This document shows positions 7,985 to 37,183 of a stretch of 40,912 nt of DNA, piece by piece (within the stretch, counting starts at the first letter, position 1; each line of letters starts with the position of its first letter). The position numbers and the translations under genes are program-made. The DNA is from an uncultured Alphaproteobacteria bacterium (GTDB taxonomy: Bacteria > Pseudomonadota > Alphaproteobacteria > HIMB59 > GCA-002718135). A model generated the notes under the pieces. That model ran no database searches. It was not told the origin of the DNA and worked only from the letters and a program-made list of their open reading frames with translations. Location: positions 1 to 40,912 of the forward strand of contig CACLBK010000007.1 of NCBI GenBank assembly GCA_902605135.1. Reading direction: 5' to 3'.

Positions 7985-8800
7985 ATGAAGTTTAAAGTTC
8001 GTGGTATCGATACGTTTGCCTCCACTGGAGGCAGACCTTTTGATAAAAATAAACCTCTTATTATTTTTGTACACGGTAGTGGACTAAGTCACATGGTCTG
8101 GGTTTTACAAACACGCTACTTTGCATTCCGTGGATACAGCGTTTTAGCTGTTGATTTACCAGGTCACGGATTATCTTCTGGTGAAAGTTTAAAAACTATT
8201 GAAGAAATGGGAGATTGGGTTGGTGATGTTATTGGTGCAGTTGGATGTAAAGAAGCTTCACTAGTTGGACATTCTCAAGGATGTCTTGTAACAATGGAAT
8301 GTGTTGCTCAACACCCAGAAAAAATTAAAACGTTAACTCTTATGGGCGGTGCGTCTGCTATTCCGATGAATCCAGAATTATTAAAGCTAGCTGAAGAGAG
8401 TAATCCTAAGGCTGTTGATCTTATGATGGATTTTGCGCACGGTCCAGCTGGACATTTTGGAGGTCATCCTGTTCCAGGTTTATACCACCTAAATGTTGGT
8501 TCCATGATTGTTCAAAATAAAGAAATTAAAGATACTCTAGGTGTGGATTTTAGAGCATGCGATAATTATAAAAACGGACCTGAAATTGCAAAAAAATTAG
8601 ATTTACCAACTCTTTCTATATTAGGTGCACAAGATAGAATGTGCCGTTTAAAAGATGGAAAAATTCTTGCTGATTATATTAAAGGCTCGGAAGTAAAGAT
8701 TATTGAAGATTGTGGTCACATGATGCTCTTAGAGGAAGCAGATCAAACATTAGAAATTCTAAAGAAGTTTATTGCTAAAAATTATCCATTAATAAATTAA
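7985..8800 (+). CDS. Alpha/beta hydrolase
   Basis: FVHGSGLSHMVW, VDLPGHGLS, LVGHSQGC nucleophile elbow, GAQDRMC, CGHMMLLE; ATG directly abuts the upstream stop. Confidence 0.88.
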   Translation: MKFKVRGIDTFASTGGRPFDKNKPLIIFVHGSGLSHMVWVLQTRYFAFRGYSVLAVDLPGHGLSSGESLKTIEEMGDWVGDVIGAVGCKEASLVGHSQGCLVTMECVAQHPEKIKTLTLMGGASAIPMNPELLKLAEESNPKAVDLMMDFAHGPAGHFGGHPVPGLYHLNVGSMIVQNKEIKDTLGVDFRACDNYKNGPEIAKKLDLPTLSILGAQDRMCRLKDGKILADYIKGSEVKIIEDCGHMMLLEEADQTLEILKKFIAKNYPLIN

Positions 8801-9579
8801 AAATTATATTTAAGTCCAACACCAACTTTTTGATCGTAGCCTTTATTCTGTCTATCCACCCTGTCATAAAAGATATTTATCATCAAATTATTCTTAGAAG
8901 ATATATCTATAGATATTTTTTGTCTGAAATAAGCTGAGGAAGCTGGACTAATATTTGTTTCATATAAAGTTGTGTTATCAGATGTATAGTTTGTAATAAT
9001 TTTAGATGATTGACTACTATCTGATCCAAATTCAATTGTTCCATGTGGAGTAAAAGTAAGAGCCTTACCATTAATTCCTTTACGCAATAAATGAAGTCCT
9101 AAAGCTGAATTTTTTTGATGTAAATGAACACTTTCATAATGTAGTGCATTAGTCCCAGTAGACTCTGTGTAATGTTCCAATTTACCGTATCCAATGTCTA
9201 GTCTTCCAAAAGGATTAATTGTATATTTATTTTTTTCCTCAATAATATTAAATCCTATACTTGAAAAATATTGATTTCCGTTTCTCTTTCCTGAATAAGT
9301 TATAGAATCACTTGAATAAAACCTATCAGTATCTACTTTTATATCTCCGTAACCAAATACAAAATCAACGTACTGAGTCTTAGATAAAGCAAGTGAATGA
9401 TAGGAGCTTATTGTTGTAATATGTAAATCTATATTGGAACCGGATGAGCCAATTTTAATCTCATCCCTACTATCACCTAACGCAAATCCTAAATGATAAT
9501 TGTCATTCATATTAATATCTATTCCAACGGTAATATTATTACCGAATATTGATTTTTGAAGATGATGATGAATCACCAC
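8797..9579 (-). CDS. Autotransporter beta-barrel domain half (out of frame with passenger half)
   Basis: Beta-strand-rich sequence ending KVGVGLKYNF (terminal Phe typical of outer-membrane barrels); overlaps the passenger ORF in another frame. Confidence 0.7.
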   Translation of the reverse strand: MVIHHHLQKSIFGNNITVGIDINMNDNYHLGFALGDSRDEIKIGSSGSNIDLHITTISSYHSLALSKTQYVDFVFGYGDIKVDTDRFYSSDSITYSGKRNGNQYFSSIGFNIIEEKNKYTINPFGRLDIGYGKLEHYTESTGTNALHYESVHLHQKNSALGLHLLRKGINGKALTFTPHGTIEFGSDSSQSSKIITNYTSDNTTLYETNISPASSAYFRQKISIDISSKNNLMINIFYDRVDRQNKGYDQKVGVGLKYNF

Positions 9580-10819
9580 TTATTTTACCTAAATCAATTG
9601 AGCCCTCAGACCAGAAACCAATATTTGATAAGTACTCATCTTCAAGATTTAACATTTTAGAAGAATCTACCAACTTTATGATATTTCTAATCTCTTTATT
9701 ATTTCCATTATATGCAAGTTGAATATTTTGATTAGAAAGATTTTTTTCTTTCATTCTTATATATCCCATTCGTGAATGAATTGTTTGAACAGTATTAAGA
9801 GTATTATTAAATATTCCGTTTATTTGACCATCAACAATAGCAAGAGAATCACTATCTAAAAAAGGACTTGTAAATGTGTTACAAGTTGAGACGCTTCCAG
9901 TTACTGTTAGATCCCAAGTTTCACTACCACTTGATGTTTCAGACAAAGTCCAACTATAATCACCAAATGTTCCTGTTTTTGCTGAACCAATCTCTCCAGA
10001 AGCAACACCATCAATAACATTTGAGTATGTTTCACATGCAAGTGTAGAAGAGGAATGAATGCCAAAATTTGTTGAAGTCCCATTCTCAACATTAGTAAGA
10101 AGCAACTGCCCATAATCGCTAGTACTATTTATTATGATATTATAATTTGTTGAAAAACGTTCTAATCTTAGGGGATCATCTCCATTTTTCCCCTGACTAT
10201 TATTTAGTGTTACCATTGTTCCAGCAAAGTTCGAAATATCTGTCCCACTACTAGTAATAGTTCCTGTATTAGTTAATGTAGTGATTGTAGCAGTATTATT
10301 GATTCCTGAACCACTTGGTGCAGATATTGTTCCACTATTTGTAAATGTTGTTATGGTGGCTGAGCTCTGATTTAGAACTGCAGCATTACCTTCAGTTGCA
10401 GTTATTGTACCGGTATTTGTTAAAGTTGTAATTGTTTTCTGATTTCGTATTGTAAAATACGTCCCACTTATAGTTCCAGCGTTTGATATTAAGTCAAAAG
10501 ATTTACCAGCAACTGTGTTAGCTATAACAATACCACCATTAGTTGATATTAATGATCCTGATGAAGTAATAGTCAAGGAGGAGTTTGTACCGCTATTCGT
10601 CAAACTCATATTAGCAGAAGAGACAGTTGCGCTTAAGGTTATGTTTGCATTTGATCCTGTAATTGAAAAAGCACTTGAACAATCGGAAGAAATTGTTGTA
10701 GTGCCAGATACATCGTCACAAGCATAAGATACTTTGGAGAATGTAGAAATTAATAAGATTAAAACTGTAGTGCATAAAATTGAAATAATTTTATTTGTAT
10801 AAAAGTTTTTTCTTACCAT
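9539..10819 (-). CDS. Autotransporter passenger half with signal peptide and repeated TLTNTGTIT motifs
   Basis: Signal peptide IISILCTTVLILLISTFSKVSYA; repeated ITTLTNTGTIT/ITTFTNSGTIS units; ends at TAA just after the barrel-domain frame opens. Confidence 0.7.
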   Translation of the reverse strand: MVRKNFYTNKIISILCTTVLILLISTFSKVSYACDDVSGTTTISSDCSSAFSITGSNANITLSATVSSANMSLTNSGTNSSLTITSSGSLISTNGGIVIANTVAGKSFDLISNAGTISGTYFTIRNQKTITTLTNTGTITATEGNAAVLNQSSATITTFTNSGTISAPSGSGINNTATITTLTNTGTITSSGTDISNFAGTMVTLNNSQGKNGDDPLRLERFSTNYNIIINSTSDYGQLLLTNVENGTSTNFGIHSSSTLACETYSNVIDGVASGEIGSAKTGTFGDYSWTLSETSSGSETWDLTVTGSVSTCNTFTSPFLDSDSLAIVDGQINGIFNNTLNTVQTIHSRMGYIRMKEKNLSNQNIQLAYNGNNKEIRNIIKLVDSSKMLNLEDEYLSNIGFWSEGSIDLGKISGDSSSSSKINIR

Positions 10820-28590: not shown

Positions 28591-29010
28591 CTAATTTTTT
28601 GAGTATGACTTTGCGTACTCTTTTATTTTTTCTAGCATTGAATATACACCATTTCTTCTTCCTGGTGTTAAAAGCGTATCAAGTTCTAAAATATTTAAGT
28701 GATCGAAATCTGAATTCTTAATTTCTTGAGGATTTCTATCACCATAAATATCACACAATATAGTAACCATTCCTTTAGAAATAAAAGCATCAGAGTCATA
28801 GTAAAATGAAAGCTTATTTTCATTTAATCTAGGAACCAACCATACTTGTGCCTGGCAGCCCGACACTTTAAAAGTATCATTTCTAAACTCCTCTGGAAAT
28901 TTTTTTGCATTTTTTGCTTGGTCTATTAAAAATTTATATTTATCCATTCCATCATCAAACAAATCAAGACTTTCTTTGTAGTAATTTATTTTTTCTTCAA
29001 TTGTTTTCAT
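28591..29010 (-). CDS. sufE: SufE family Fe-S cluster assembly protein
   Basis: FRNDTFKVSGCQAQVWLVP with catalytic Cys loop; LLTPGRRNGVYSMLEKI. Confidence 0.87.
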   Translation of the reverse strand: MKTIEEKINYYKESLDLFDDGMDKYKFLIDQAKNAKKFPEEFRNDTFKVSGCQAQVWLVPRLNENKLSFYYDSDAFISKGMVTILCDIYGDRNPQEIKNSDFDHLNILELDTLLTPGRRNGVYSMLEKIKEYAKSYSKN

Positions 29011-31023: not shown

Positions 31024-31158
31024 ATAAATATATAATAAATTATTATTACTTAATTTAAAATTGATAAATTTTATAAATGAGTAATATCGTATACTTGTTT
31101 ATTTGTTGAATTCAAAATAAAGTCTGTTAATGCTAAAAAAAAACAAATCTTTCAATTT

Positions 31159-31896
31159 ATGAGACTAGATAAAAAAAATATCATTGTAACTGCTGCTGCT
31201 CAAGGAATAGGAAAAGCTACAGCATTAAGATTTGCAAATGAGGGAGCTACAGTTTTAGCAACTGATATTAATGAAGATAGGCTCAAAGATTTAAAAAAAG
31301 AAAATGATAATATTCAAATTATTAAATTAGATGCTACGAATAAAAATGAGGTTGAGGCTTTTTGTTCAACTGTAGATAAGATAGATGTTTTATTTCATGC
31401 TGTGGGTTTTGTTCATCATGGTACCATTCTTGATTGTGATGAAAATGAATTTTCAAGATCAATAAATGTAAATGTTTTTTCAGCGTATTTAATGACTCAT
31501 AATCTCTTACCAAAAATGCTTAAAGAGAAAAAAGGAAGTATCGTTATTGTTTCCTCTGCTGCTTCAAATGTAAAAGGTGCTCCTAATAGATTTATCTATG
31601 GCACAACCAAAGCCGCACTCAACGGATTTGTAAAAGCTATAGCCATTGATCACGTCAAAGATGGTATCCGCTGTAATGCCATTTTACCAGGAACGGTTGA
31701 AACACCTTCTTGGGAGGGTAGAGTTAACATGGCTGAGGATCCAATACAGGCACGATCAGATTTTATTGCTAGGCAGGCTATGGGAAGATTAGCACAACCA
31801 GAAGAAATTGCATCTCTTGCAACATATTTAGCAAGTGATGAATCAGATTTTGTTACTGGTACTTTAAATTTAATTGATGGAGGATGGACTTTATAA
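31159..31896 (+). CDS. SDR oxidoreductase, 2-keto-3-deoxy-L-fuconate dehydrogenase-like
   Basis: VTAAAQGIGKATALRFANEGA, SSAASNVKGAPNRFIYGTTKAAL, GRLAQPEEIASLATYLASDESDFVTG. Confidence 0.85.
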   Translation: MRLDKKNIIVTAAAQGIGKATALRFANEGATVLATDINEDRLKDLKKENDNIQIIKLDATNKNEVEAFCSTVDKIDVLFHAVGFVHHGTILDCDENEFSRSINVNVFSAYLMTHNLLPKMLKEKKGSIVIVSSAASNVKGAPNRFIYGTTKAALNGFVKAIAIDHVKDGIRCNAILPGTVETPSWEGRVNMAEDPIQARSDFIARQAMGRLAQPEEIASLATYLASDESDFVTGTLNLIDGGWTL

Positions 31897-32744
31897 TGAA
31901 AATCTTGAGATTCAGAATTGGTAAAGAAGTAAAACCTGGATTACTTGATCAAGAAGGTAATATTCGTGATGCTTCTTCTTTAGTAAATGATTGGGATAAC
32001 AAAAATATAACCATAGACAAACTAAATGAGGTAAAAAAAACTGACCTTACATCTTTACCTTTAGTTGAAAAGAGTGATGGGTTTGCCCCTTGTGTTTCTA
32101 AATATAGTATTGGAAAGTTTATATGTATCGGTCTTAATTATTCTGATCACGCAGAGGAAACAGGCCAAAAAGTACCCCCGGAACCTATCATATTCGCTAA
32201 AGCAACAAGTGCAGTTATTGGCCCAAATGATGATGTAGAAATACCAAAAAAATCAGTTAAATCAGATTGGGAAGTTGAGCTCGGAGTTATTATAGGAAAA
32301 GAGGCAAAATATATTTCTGAAAGTGAATCAGAGTCTCACATTGCTGGATACTGTGTCATCAATGATTTAAGCGAAAGAGAGTTTCAAATAGAACATTCAG
32401 GTCAATGGGTGAAAGGCAAATCTTGTGATACTTTCGGTCCAATAGGTCCTTATTTAGTTACAACTGATGAAGTTCCAGATCCACAAAATTTAAAAATGTG
32501 GCTTGATGTTAACGGAAAAAGAATGCAGGATGGTTCTACTAGTACGATGGTTTACAAAGTAAATTTTTTAATCAGCTATCTGAGCCAGTTTATGTCATTG
32601 CAACCAGGTGATATTATTTCGACTGGAACACCCCCTGGAGTTGGAATGGGAATGAACCCACAAGTTTTTTTAAAAGCAGGTGATGTGATGAAGCTCGGCA
32701 TTGAAGGTTTAGGAGAACAAACTCAAAAAACTATTCAAGCATAA
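31896..32744 (+). CDS. FAH-family hydrolase, possibly 2,4-diketo-3-deoxy-L-fuconate hydrolase (ORF track starts upstream at 31884)
   Basis: FICIGLNYSDHAEETGQKVPPEPIIFAK, SDWEVELGVIIGK, NDLSEREFQIEHSGQWVKGKSCDTFGPIGPYLVT, STGTPPGVGMG; ATG overlaps the SDR stop. Confidence 0.88.
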   Translation: MKILRFRIGKEVKPGLLDQEGNIRDASSLVNDWDNKNITIDKLNEVKKTDLTSLPLVEKSDGFAPCVSKYSIGKFICIGLNYSDHAEETGQKVPPEPIIFAKATSAVIGPNDDVEIPKKSVKSDWEVELGVIIGKEAKYISESESESHIAGYCVINDLSEREFQIEHSGQWVKGKSCDTFGPIGPYLVTTDEVPDPQNLKMWLDVNGKRMQDGSTSTMVYKVNFLISYLSQFMSLQPGDIISTGTPPGVGMGMNPQVFLKAGDVMKLGIEGLGEQTQKTIQA

Positions 32745-33898
32745 TGTTTGGAAGCATAAATAACTGTCACAACGTTAAAGATTTTAGAAACTTAGCAAAA
32801 AAAAGATTACCTAGTCCTATTTTTCATTATATTGACGGCGCTGCTGATGATGAAATAACTTATAAAAGAAATACTGATGCTTATGAGCAGTGTGATTTAA
32901 TTCCCAATGTTTTAAGTGGTGTTGATAAAGTAGACATGTCGACCACAGTAATGGGTCAAAAATTAGATATGCCATTGTATTGTGCACCAACTGCTCTTCA
33001 AAGACTATTTCATTACGAAGGAGAGATTGGTGTTGCTAAAGCTGCTGAAAAATTTGGAACAATGTTTGGTATTTCTTCTTTAGGCACAGCGAGCATAGAA
33101 GAAATATCCGATCTTGTTAAATCTCCAAAACTTTTTCAACTATATGTTCATAAAGATAAGGGATTAAACAAGGCCCTTATAGAAAGATGTAAAGAATCTA
33201 ATTTTGAAGCAATGGCTGTAACAGTTGATACTGCAGTTGGTGGAAATCGAGAAAGAGATTTATATACGGGCTTTACCATTCCTATGAAACTAAAACTAAA
33301 CAGTGTTGCTAGCTTCATGCTGCATCCAAAATGGGCAATAGATTATTTTACAAAACCAAAATGGGAATTAAGCAATCTAAAAGATCACATTAGTGAGGGC
33401 ACAAAAGTAATGACAACCATTGGAGACTACTTCACAAAAATGTTAGATAATTCAATGAGCTGGAAGGATGTTGAAAATATTAATAAAGAGTGGGGCCGTC
33501 AATTTGCAATAAAAGGAGTAATGTCAGTAGAAGATGCAAAGAAAGCTGTTGATGTTGGTGCTTCAGCAATAATGATTTCTAATCACGGGGGAAGGCAGTT
33601 AGATGGCTCAAGATCACCATTCGATCAACTTGCAGAAATTGTCGATGCTGTTGGAGATAAAATAGATGTTATCTGTGAGGGCGGAATTAGAAGAGGTACT
33701 CATGTCTTAAAAGCGTTATCTCTCGGTGCCAAAGCCTGTTCTGGAGGAAGAATGTATCTATATGCTCTTGCTGCTGGTGGTCAAAAGGGTGTTGAAAAAA
33801 GTTTATCGAATTTACGCAATGAAATTGAAAGAGATATGAAATTAATGGGAGTTTCTAACGTAAAAGAGCTAACAAGAAAAAATCTAAAATTCAGATAA
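32744..33898 (+). CDS. FMN-dependent alpha-hydroxy acid dehydrogenase (L-lactate dehydrogenase-like)
   Basis: FHYIDGAADDEITYKRN, LFQLYVHKDKG, TVDTAVGGNRERD, ISNHGGRQLDGSRSPFDQL; ATG overlaps the FAH stop. Confidence 0.9.
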   Translation: MFGSINNCHNVKDFRNLAKKRLPSPIFHYIDGAADDEITYKRNTDAYEQCDLIPNVLSGVDKVDMSTTVMGQKLDMPLYCAPTALQRLFHYEGEIGVAKAAEKFGTMFGISSLGTASIEEISDLVKSPKLFQLYVHKDKGLNKALIERCKESNFEAMAVTVDTAVGGNRERDLYTGFTIPMKLKLNSVASFMLHPKWAIDYFTKPKWELSNLKDHISEGTKVMTTIGDYFTKMLDNSMSWKDVENINKEWGRQFAIKGVMSVEDAKKAVDVGASAIMISNHGGRQLDGSRSPFDQLAEIVDAVGDKIDVICEGGIRRGTHVLKALSLGAKACSGGRMYLYALAAGGQKGVEKSLSNLRNEIERDMKLMGVSNVKELTRKNLKFR

Positions 33899-33958: not shown

Positions 33959-34279
33959 ATGAATGATGAAATAGAACCAATTTTTATAGGAGAAGTTGAT
34001 GATATAGATGTTGGTTCTGTTGAGAATTTTGAACATGAAGATGTTAATTACGCAATTTATAGAATTGAATCAGGTTTTTTTGCAACTGAAGGTAATTGTC
34101 CATGTGCGGAAAGATCTCTATTAAGTGAAGCAAGCATTGAAGCCGAAGAACTTGAATGCCCATCTTGTGGAAATAAATTTAGTATTGTCTCTGGAGATCC
34201 TATTACAGATTTAGATCAAAATCCATTAAGGATATATGATGTAACCGAAGAGGATGGAAATCTTTACCTAAATCTTTAA
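33959..34279 (+). CDS. Rieske-fold (MocE-like) ferredoxin-type protein with Cys in place of both His ligands
   Basis: 106 aa; FATEGNCPCAERSLL...ELECPSCGNKFSIVSGDP aligns by eye with CTH...CPKH-type Rieske ferredoxins but reads C-x-C and C-x-x-C. Confidence 0.72.
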   Translation: MNDEIEPIFIGEVDDIDVGSVENFEHEDVNYAIYRIESGFFATEGNCPCAERSLLSEASIEAEELECPSCGNKFSIVSGDPITDLDQNPLRIYDVTEEDGNLYLNL

Positions 34280-35241
34280 CTTAATATATCCAAATTAATT
34301 ATATTACTTTCTATTAAGTTTTTACTTTTAGATAAAAAGTTAAAAACATTTTCGCAGCATTCAATTGCCATTCTTTTCCTACACTCTAATGTAAGAGCGG
34401 CATTATGAGGGGTTAAAATAATATTTTCCAATGAAAATAATTTGTGATCATTTATGGGAGGTTCTTGTTCAAAGACATCAATTCCTGCTCCAAATATTCT
34501 ATTATTATTTAACGCATCAAATAAATCATCTTCATTAATAATACCACCTCGAGCTGTGTTAATTAATATTAAATTAGATTTGAAAATTTTGAATTCATTT
34601 GAAGAAATTAAATTTTTTGTTTTATCGTTTAGAGGTAGATGGATACTGATGTAATCAGCAATTTTAAAACCTTCATCTTTATTTATTGGAATACAATTAT
34701 TACTTGTAATTTCATTTTCACTAATAAAAGGGTCATGAACAAATATTTCCATATCAAACCCTAAGCATCTTTTTGCAAGGGCCTTTCCTATTCTTCCAAA
34801 ACCCATGATTAGAATTTTTTTATTATAGAGTTCAAAAAAATTTGGTAAATTTGCTTTTTCTTTAAATTTATTATCTCGTGTTAGTTTATCAGATTTAGAA
34901 ATATTTTTTGTAAGATTTAGCATCATTGTCATCACATGCTCAGCTACACTTACTGCATTTGCTTTGCCAGTAATTGCCATAGCGATTTTGTTTTTATTTA
35001 AATATTCAGTGTCAACATTGTCATAACCTACACCATGTCTTGCCACAATTTTAAGGTTTCGACTTTTTGAAAGAATATTTTTATTTAATTCTGCTGTTCG
35101 GATAATTATCCCATCGACATCTGATAATTCCTTAATTAAATTATTTTCTTCTATGTTATTTGTTACAAAATACTCAATATTATTTTTATTAAAAAACTCA
35201 TATCCACTTGGATGAATATCTCCTACAATTCCTACTTTCAT
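34276..35241 (-). CDS. D-isomer-specific 2-hydroxyacid dehydrogenase
   Basis: ILIMGFGRIGKALAKRCLGFDMEIFVHDP, LINTARGGIINEDDLFDAL, GIDVFEQEPP, LTPHNAA. Confidence 0.92.
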   Translation of the reverse strand: MKVGIVGDIHPSGYEFFNKNNIEYFVTNNIEENNLIKELSDVDGIIIRTAELNKNILSKSRNLKIVARHGVGYDNVDTEYLNKNKIAMAITGKANAVSVAEHVMTMMLNLTKNISKSDKLTRDNKFKEKANLPNFFELYNKKILIMGFGRIGKALAKRCLGFDMEIFVHDPFISENEITSNNCIPINKDEGFKIADYISIHLPLNDKTKNLISSNEFKIFKSNLILINTARGGIINEDDLFDALNNNRIFGAGIDVFEQEPPINDHKLFSLENIILTPHNAALTLECRKRMAIECCENVFNFLSKSKNLIESNIINLDILS

Positions 35242-35338: not shown

Positions 35339-37183
35339 ATGAAAACCATAAAAATGTCATGCTCCCATGCATTAATTAAGTATTTAACTGTCCAAAAAAT
35401 TTTGATTAATGGAAAAAAAGAACCATTGTTCCCTGGAGCATTTGGAATTTATGGACATGGTAATGTTGCGTGCATTGGTCAAGCGATGGAAGAATTTCAA
35501 AATGATTTACCAGCATATAGAGGACATCATGAACAAAATATGGCCCTAACTGGTATTGCCTATTCAAGAGCAAAACGCAGGAAACAAATATTTGTTGCAA
35601 CTTCTTCAGTAGGACCTGGTGCAACAAATATGGTTACAGCCTCTGCAGTAGCTTTAAGTAACAGACTTCCAATTTTACTTTTACCCGGCGATACTTTTTC
35701 AAGTAGATTTCCTGATCCAGTTTTACAACAAGTTGAGCATTTTAACTCTCCTTCTGAAACACAAAATGATGCTTTTAGATCTGTATCTAGATACTTTGAT
35801 AGAATCACAAGGCCAGAGCAGATTTTATCTTCTTTACCACAAGCAATAAATACAATGCTCGATCCATCTGACTGTGGACCGGCTGTAATTTCGATGTCGC
35901 AAGATGTTCAAGGTGAGGCATATGAATACCCAGAGATTTTTTTTGAAGAAACTATTCATGAAATAAGAACTATTCATCCTGATCCTAAACAAATAAATGT
36001 TGCTGCTGAAAATTTAAAAAATTCAAAACAACCAATTATTATTTCTGGCGGTGGCGTATTATATTCTGAAGCTGAAGAGGAAATTTCTTCTTTTGCAAAA
36101 AAACATAATATTCCTGTTATTGCAACAGTTATGGGCATTGGTTGTATGCATAAAGATGATCCTTACTATATAGGTGCTACAGGAGGCTTAGGGGAAGGAT
36201 CAGCAAATAATTTATCTAGAGATACAGACCTAGCTTTAGCAATCGGTACGAAATTAGCAGATTTTACAACTGCATCTTGGACAAATTTTCAAAATGAAAA
36301 TTTTAAACTTGTATCCGTTAACACATCGAGATTTGATACAGTTAAACATAGGGCTTTCCCCGTAGTAAGTGATGCAAAAATCGGATTAAAGGAATTGTCG
36401 AAAGCTTTAGGGGATTGGAAAGCTCCTAATGGATGGTATCAAAGAGCAATTGACGAAAAAATTAAATGGGAAGAATATGTTGCTAAAGAAAGTGGACCAA
36501 CAAATCAAGAATTACCATCATATGCTCATGCCGTAGGAGCCGTCTATCGAAACTCTGATCCCTCTGACATTGTTGTAACAGCAGCTGGCGGATTAGTTGG
36601 AGAGGTTGTTCAAATTTGGAAACCAAAAGAAATTAATACTTTCGAAACCGAATGGGGTTTTAGTTGTATGGGATATGAAATATCAGGTGCATTAGGAATT
36701 AAAATGGCAAAACCTGATCAGGATGTTGTCGTATTTGTTGGAGACGGATCTTATCTTCTACAAAACAGTGATATTTATAGCTCAGTTTTATATGATAAAA
36801 AATTGATCATTGTAGTATGTGATAATGGTGGTCATATGGTTATTAACAGACTGCAACTTGCGAAAGGCGGTAAAGAATACCTTTGTAATTTAAATGCTGC
36901 CGGAGCTACCAACCTTCAGTTTGTTGACTTCGAGGCTCATGCAAAAAGTATGGGAGCAAATGCTGAAACTGTAAAGTCTACCTCGGAATTAGAAGCTGCT
37001 TTTAAAAGAGCTAAAGCATCTGATAAAACATACGTAATTTCAATGAAAACAGATGGGTATGAATGGTTAGAAGGTACAGCTTTTTGGGATAGCCCAACAC
37101 TTCAGGTTTCTTCCACTAAAGAAAATAAAGCTGCCTATGAAGAATTTGTAGATGGAAAAAATAAACAACGAAAAGGTGTTTAG
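35339..37183 (+). CDS. iolD: 3D-(3,5/4)-trihydroxycyclohexane-1,2-dione acylhydrolase (TPP enzyme)
   Basis: LFPGAFGIYGHGNVACIGQAMEE, HHEQNMALTGIAYSRAKRRKQIFVATSSVGPGATNMVT, GDGSYLLQNSDIYSS...VCDNGGHMVINRLQ. Confidence 0.93.
   Translation: MKTIKMSCSHALIKYLTVQKILINGKKEPLFPGAFGIYGHGNVACIGQAMEEFQNDLPAYRGHHEQNMALTGIAYSRAKRRKQIFVATSSVGPGATNMVTASAVALSNRLPILLLPGDTFSSRFPDPVLQQVEHFNSPSETQNDAFRSVSRYFDRITRPEQILSSLPQAINTMLDPSDCGPAVISMSQDVQGEAYEYPEIFFEETIHEIRTIHPDPKQINVAAENLKNSKQPIIISGGGVLYSEAEEEISSFAKKHNIPVIATVMGIGCMHKDDPYYIGATGGLGEGSANNLSRDTDLALAIGTKLADFTTASWTNFQNENFKLVSVNTSRFDTVKHRAFPVVSDAKIGLKELSKALGDWKAPNGWYQRAIDEKIKWEEYVAKESGPTNQELPSYAHAVGAVYRNSDPSDIVVTAAGGLVGEVVQIWKPKEINTFETEWGFSCMGYEISGALGIKMAKPDQDVVVFVGDGSYLLQNSDIYSSVLYDKKLIIVVCDNGGHMVINRLQLAKGGKEYLCNLNAAGATNLQFVDFEAHAKSMGANAETVKSTSELEAAFKRAKASDKTYVISMKTDGYEWLEGTAFWDSPTLQVSSTKENKAAYEEFVDGKNKQRKGV

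Follow-up and report, generated by a model that had tools for sequence, protein, structure and literature searches.

Whether a Rieske fold that has exchanged both of its histidine ligands for cysteine still carries a two-iron cluster, or has taken up another metal, is a question posed by a small gene in an uncultured alphaproteobacterium of the HIMB59 order. A ligand set of two cysteines and two histidines defines Rieske centres and is the source of their high, pH-dependent potentials. The gene, named here RskC4, lies within a stretch of 40,912 nucleotides of contig CACLBK010000007.1 (the window) at positions 33959-34279 of the forward strand, reads from ATG to TAA, and encodes a Cys4 Rieske-fold protein of 106 amino acids. 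The protein has a predicted pI of 4.05 and a predicted charge at pH 7 of -22, much like the -17 of a paralogue of the usual two-histidine (HH) type in the same genome. Loop 1 presents Cys47-Pro-Cys49 where C-x-H is expected (TGT CCA TGT; 34097-34105), and loop 2 presents Cys67-Pro-Ser-Cys70 in place of C-x-x-H (TGC CCA TCT TGT; 34157-34168), such that cysteines occupy the exact positions of the histidines of Rieske ferredoxins. The codon positions given for both motifs in the initial annotation are exact, as is the 60-bp gap it placed between an LldD-like gene, which stops at 33898, and the start of RskC4 at 33959.

Assignment of RskC4 to the Rieske fold draws on both profile scores and structure prediction. 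The Pfam model PF00355 (Rieske) is exceeded (25.5 bits; cut-off 20.3) and matches 15 of 15 members of the RskC4 set at E <= 1, and Rieske_2 falls slightly under its cut-off (25.6 bits; cut-off 27). Resemblances among the NCBIfam models, to HcaC, NirD and the MocE ferredoxins, are all below cut-off, with 38.4 bits for NirD (cut-off 74.65) and 36.3 bits for the MocE model TIGR02377 (cut-off 136.15). The best sequence matches in the PDB are the Rieske ferredoxins of the carbazole, biphenyl and naphthalene dioxygenases. An AF2 model built from 15 sequences is mostly β-structure with two loops, and was confident in one of five cases (best pLDDT 80.9, the others 63-67); its top Foldseek matches are all Rieske ferredoxins of the CarAc, BphA3 and NdoA type (probability 1.00, TM 0.71-0.79). 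RskC4 is thus a Rieske-fold protein, in agreement with the initial annotation. That annotation had allowed for a known zinc-ribbon family unrelated to Rieske proteins, but the zinc-ribbon models of Pfam score below cut-off (LysW, 14.4 bits against 27; Trm112p, 13.5 against 22), with such sub-threshold matches in 12 of the 15 members, and an unrelated zinc ribbon is ruled out by the profile scores and the predicted fold. The redox-sensitive protein Hsp33 gave no match to RskC4 in Pfam (E <= 1) or NCBIfam (E <= 0.1).

The four cysteines are a fixed feature of the family. Scanning 84,980 species genomes brought up 36 relatives (63-100% identical), each from a single-cell or metagenome assembly of a marine alphaproteobacterium and each bearing CxC and CxxC. 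Widening this set with loci from whole-genome searches produced 34 distinct proteins, which share 62-100% identity with the RskC4 of the window and all display C-x-C-17-C-x-x-C with a constant 17-residue spacer, and not the C-x-H...C-x-x-H set of the Rieske superfamily; chance falls far short of explaining such agreement. The intervening positions vary (CPC, CNC, CTC, CSC, CHC and CLC in loop 1; CPSC, CPTC, CVGC and CASC in loop 2), and all four cysteine codons undergo synonymous switches between TGT and TGC without the residue ever being altered. Pairwise dN (0.02-0.26) lies far under dS (0.1-1.9), with the more distant pairs having a dS of about 1 and a dN of 0.06-0.26, and the other invariant positions fall mostly in or near both loops and in an SIVSGD stretch past loop 2. 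These substitution patterns indicate that strong purifying selection has acted on the four-cysteine site since its origin. The initial annotation had proposed examining whether the pattern marks a conserved clade; it does, none of the homologues restoring a histidine, and a local mutation or sequencing error is ruled out by the agreement of 34 distinct proteins. The low scores of RskC4 against every named ferredoxin subfamily could also be those of a Rieske relic in decay whose cysteines are accidental, a reading of negligible probability. It is refuted by this conservation: the cysteines are invariant across five genera, the reading frames are intact, and dN/dS is well under 1.

The ancestry of this site can be traced to ferredoxins of the MocE type. 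A maximum-likelihood analysis of 61 rows, with many forks left unresolved by an alignment of only 105 columns, joins the Cys4 rows in a single clade (support 100/100), which is nested among HH MocE-type ferredoxins and set apart by a stem of 1.92 changes per site. The clade is grouped with MocE-type HH ferredoxins that include the paralogue of its own genome, at a fork whose support of 98/71 leaves the exact sister unresolved, and common descent with MocE-type sequences was recovered. The paralogue itself (G000:C12:29448-29747; CTH...CPMH) passes TIGR02377 (137.8 bits; cut-off 136.15) and adjoins an ORF that reads as ferredoxin-reductase-like (L002). Together, the tree and the paralogue show that the cysteine set is derived, with a single origin as far as seen, and that the histidine type persists alongside it. 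On sequence grounds, RskC4 is a lineage-specific offshoot of the Rieske superfamily, derived from a MocE-type ferredoxin.

Among 162 genomes searched within the HIMB59 order, full-length copies with the Cys4 set were found in one family only (f1), where they occur in genus g1 and in four others (g454-g457); the sister family f2 has none. We take f2 to be the family of the HIMB59 isolate, which would make f1 the main AEGEAN-169 (AEGEAN-169/SAR11-V) group. AEGEAN-169 bacteria have a broader sugar range than SAR11, rhamnose transport included (PMC10308909). In samples of 385 genomes from the class and 399 from the phylum, through which a Cys4 set too divergent for the RskC4 query could escape, all matches outside f1 have histidine at both places. 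A plasmid search yielded one weak match, annotated as an oxygenase ferredoxin subunit. No natural all-cysteine Rieske protein was found in the open-access literature, a weak absence given that coverage.

The genomic setting points to sugar-acid catabolism, with RskC4 the last gene of an L-fuconate/rhamnonate-type operon of dehydratase, SDR, diketo-acid hydrolase and lactate dehydrogenase. In the window it is preceded on the same strand by an SDR dehydrogenase (31159-31896; PF13561), by operon context a probable 2-keto-3-deoxy-sugar-acid 4-dehydrogenase; by an FAH-family hydrolase (31884-32744) resembling 2,4-didehydro-3-deoxy-L-rhamnonate (or fuconate) hydrolases (NF053535, 383.7 bits; cut-off 500); and by the LldD-like FMN-dependent 2-hydroxyacid dehydrogenase (32744-33898; PF01070, 432 bits), which is left without a subfamily because its best NCBIfam model, NF008398, scores 314 bits against a cut-off of 376. 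From the family names and pathway knowledge, the full module would comprise a dehydratase, a 4-dehydrogenase, a diketo-acid hydrolase releasing pyruvate and L-lactate, and a lactate-oxidizing step. Such a module would constitute the non-phosphorylating route for L-fucose and L-rhamnose. A convergent 2-hydroxyacid dehydrogenase gene (34276-35241, reverse strand; PF02826) overlaps the last 4 bases of RskC4 and is followed by a gene for an IolD-type TPP enzyme (35339-37183, forward strand; TIGR04377, 763 bits; cut-off 715); in loci L152 and L154 the former is absent from this position and the IolD gene comes directly after RskC4. The IolD-type gene of the window is full-length and stands next to sugar ABC transporter and 2-hydroxyacid dehydrogenase genes, with no other inositol gene identified in the stretch examined.

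The order SDR-FAH-LldD-RskC4 is nearly constant across subclades and the flanking genes differ. Other RskC4 loci have enolase-type sugar-acid dehydratases directly upstream, and in L037 an L-fucono-lactonase-like gene is also found there. Unlike most of its relatives, the window has no enolase-type dehydratase upstream of the SDR gene (31024-31158), where galE/galT are found instead on the other strand; the upstream half of the operon has been exchanged between subclades. An FAH gene is the neighbour found beside every mapped RskC4 locus, including L155, which bears FAH-LldD-RskC4 without an adjoining SDR. Among the 37 genomes of genus g1, RskC4 and FAH are co-present or co-absent in all, with both in 29, a co-occurrence that is mostly synteny since the two genes are close neighbours in incomplete assemblies. 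A SufE-family gene for Fe-S assembly (28591-29010, reverse strand) adjoins galT at a distance of about 5 kb from RskC4, and several related loci retain a SufE-like neighbour. Signals from a promoter and terminator scan around RskC4 were at the level of shuffles. The usual partner of Rieske ferredoxins is missing, as the window's assembly (68% complete) yielded no ring-hydroxylating (Rieske) oxygenase.

The near-constant LldD neighbour suggests itself as a partner, with RskC4 as its dedicated electron acceptor conveying electrons from L-lactate to the respiratory chain. The two genes lie side by side in the same orientation at nearly all loci of the family, and the acidic RskC4 (pI 4.05) contrasts with a basic LldD (pI 8.5-9.0 for full-length copies in RskC4 loci). 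This charge complementarity is uninformative, however, because the LldD pI ranges of genomes with and without RskC4 overlap, and several loci separate the two genes. Locus L156 (G867, 91% complete) reads SDR-FAH-RskC4, with no LldD match in the assembly at E <= 1e-10, whereas L151 (G041, of the sister family) reads dehydratase-SDR-FAH-LldD followed by unrelated genes, without RskC4. LldD also persists without RskC4 in L135 and L136, the HIMB59 family has close LldD relatives (79-81% identical) without it, and one RskC4 locus has a broken LldD frame (L036/L153). The dedicated-acceptor role is therefore unlikely. As the L156 and L151 exceptions imply that LldD neither needs RskC4 nor is needed by it, LldD is not an obligatory partner, and the functional meaning that the initial annotation had suggested for this neighbour is weakened.

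These loci hold further observations. L156:1244-2490, with RskC4 directly after FAH, and L151:9012-11544, with FAH-LldD, constitute a natural gene-loss pair. At L036:7998-9177 (the same genome as L153:7401-8580), the LldD frame is split by a stop or frameshift beside an intact RskC4, possibly as a pseudogene or through an error of assembly. The LldD at L038:8747-10318 is 96-97% identical to that of the window next to an RskC4 of only 63-64% identity, and the LldD of L037 is 72-73% identical; the differing histories of these neighbours suggest recombination inside the operon. Another alphaproteobacterium (L141:6847-9173) has two tandem LldD-like genes in one operon, 57% and 66% identical to that of the window.

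Which metal RskC4 binds must be weighed among three readings, which overlap with the question of its partner and whose likelihoods need not sum to one. We narrowly favour an all-cysteinyl [2Fe-2S] electron carrier over a zinc protein, with a probability approaching an even chance. Both histidine ligands of a MocE-type [2Fe-2S] ferredoxin were replaced by cysteine in place (CxH to CxC, CxxH to CxxC), and by this account the cluster would be held between the two loops with Cys47 and Cys67 on one iron and Cys49 and Cys70 on the other. RskC4 would then be a soluble, very acidic electron carrier, presumably with a potential below that of its histidine-ligated relatives, and may serve a redox reaction that belongs to the deoxy-sugar-acid pathway or adjoins it. 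The [2Fe-2S] reading is consistent with the invariant ligand set and spacer, with the nesting of a single Cys4 clade among HH MocE-type ferredoxins, with an HH paralogue that passes TIGR02377 beside a reductase-like ORF, with the fold match to CarAc, BphA3 and NdoA-type ferredoxins, with an acidity like that of the paralogue, and with the SufE gene in the window. Precedent is provided by engineered variants of the Sulfolobus (S. solfataricus) protein ARF, reviewed from the work of Kounosu and Iwasaki (PMC2946596). The H64C variant forms a low-potential 3Cys-1His [2Fe-2S] cluster, demonstrating that one is possible in a Rieske fold, but H44C alone fails to form a cluster, and assembly is largely impaired in H44C/H64C, which bears the same CxC...CxxC set as RskC4 (PMC2946596).

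That impairment is also an argument for zinc, by which the four cysteines would bind one Zn(II) as Zn(Cys)4 in a zinc-ribbon-like structural module or an Hsp33-like oxidation-sensitive switch, with no electron transfer; RskC4 may in that case be a scaffold or regulator for sugar-acid enzymes. Hsp33 binds one zinc through CXC and CXXC motifs (PMC8282892), Rieske cluster loops resemble those of rubredoxin and zinc ribbons (PMC2946596), and the second knuckle of RskC4, C-x-x-C-G, resembles a zinc knuckle; the weak LysW/Trm112 matches and the lack of an oxygenase partner also speak for zinc. Those matches, however, are far below cut-off and cover only part of the domain, the whole Rieske domain and its strong acidity are retained, and loop 1 keeps the CxC spacing of a two-iron site and has not been turned into CxxC. 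Zinc is a serious possibility, somewhat better than one chance in three. A mononuclear, rubredoxin-like Fe(Cys)4 site is improbable, and slightly more so than LldD as a dedicated partner. Precisely this kind of site was obtained in the ARF triple variant H44I/K45C/H64C, but that design needed CxxC in loop 1 (PMC2946596), whereas every natural homologue has CxC, unvaried in position. Because RskC4 has CxC at the histidine positions, and not the CxxC of the engineered rubredoxin-type site, a kept two-iron site fits it.

Comparison with known systems places RskC4 closest to the MocE- and oxygenase-type ferredoxins (TIGR02377; CarAc, BphF/BphA3, NdoA), which it resembles in size (about 105 residues), whole-domain alignment, predicted fold, loop spacing and acidity and among which its clade branches, but from which it differs in its two cysteines for histidines and in having neither an oxygenase nor an adjoining reductase gene. 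The small NirD subunits share the Rieske fold (3c0d is among the Foldseek matches), and some of them are without canonical cluster ligands, but RskC4 has gained four thiol ligands rather than lost them. Hsp33 shares the CxC and CxxC set and is a single-zinc protein of unrelated fold and sequence. The engineered ARF variants H44C/H64C and H64C have the same fold and ligand replacement made by hand, and the double variant largely failed in cluster assembly, whereas in RskC4 the set occurs naturally and is conserved throughout a bacterial family.

As both histidines have been permanently replaced, RskC4 is a natural version of the ARF double variant and a direct test of which metal this scaffold holds, a question raised by the ARF engineering itself. 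The conserved Cys4 clade shows that the Rieske fold tolerates a full histidine-to-cysteine swap in evolution, and it offers a ready set of proteins for studying the choice between [2Fe-2S], mononuclear iron and zinc in one scaffold. RskC4 also marks a conserved component of putative deoxy-sugar-acid catabolism in the AEGEAN-169/SAR11-V group. Were the [2Fe-2S] reading true, this lineage would have overcome the hurdle in cluster assembly at which the same replacement failed in the laboratory. It is conceivable, at about two chances in five, that RskC4 is the first natural all-cysteinyl [2Fe-2S] protein in a Rieske fold, a low-potential carrier akin to plant ferredoxins in abundant ocean bacteria.

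Elsewhere in the window (8797-10819, reverse strand), an ORF for an autotransporter β-domain overlaps a preceding repetitive, secreted ORF in a different frame (9539-9579), as if one gene had been split by a frameshift.
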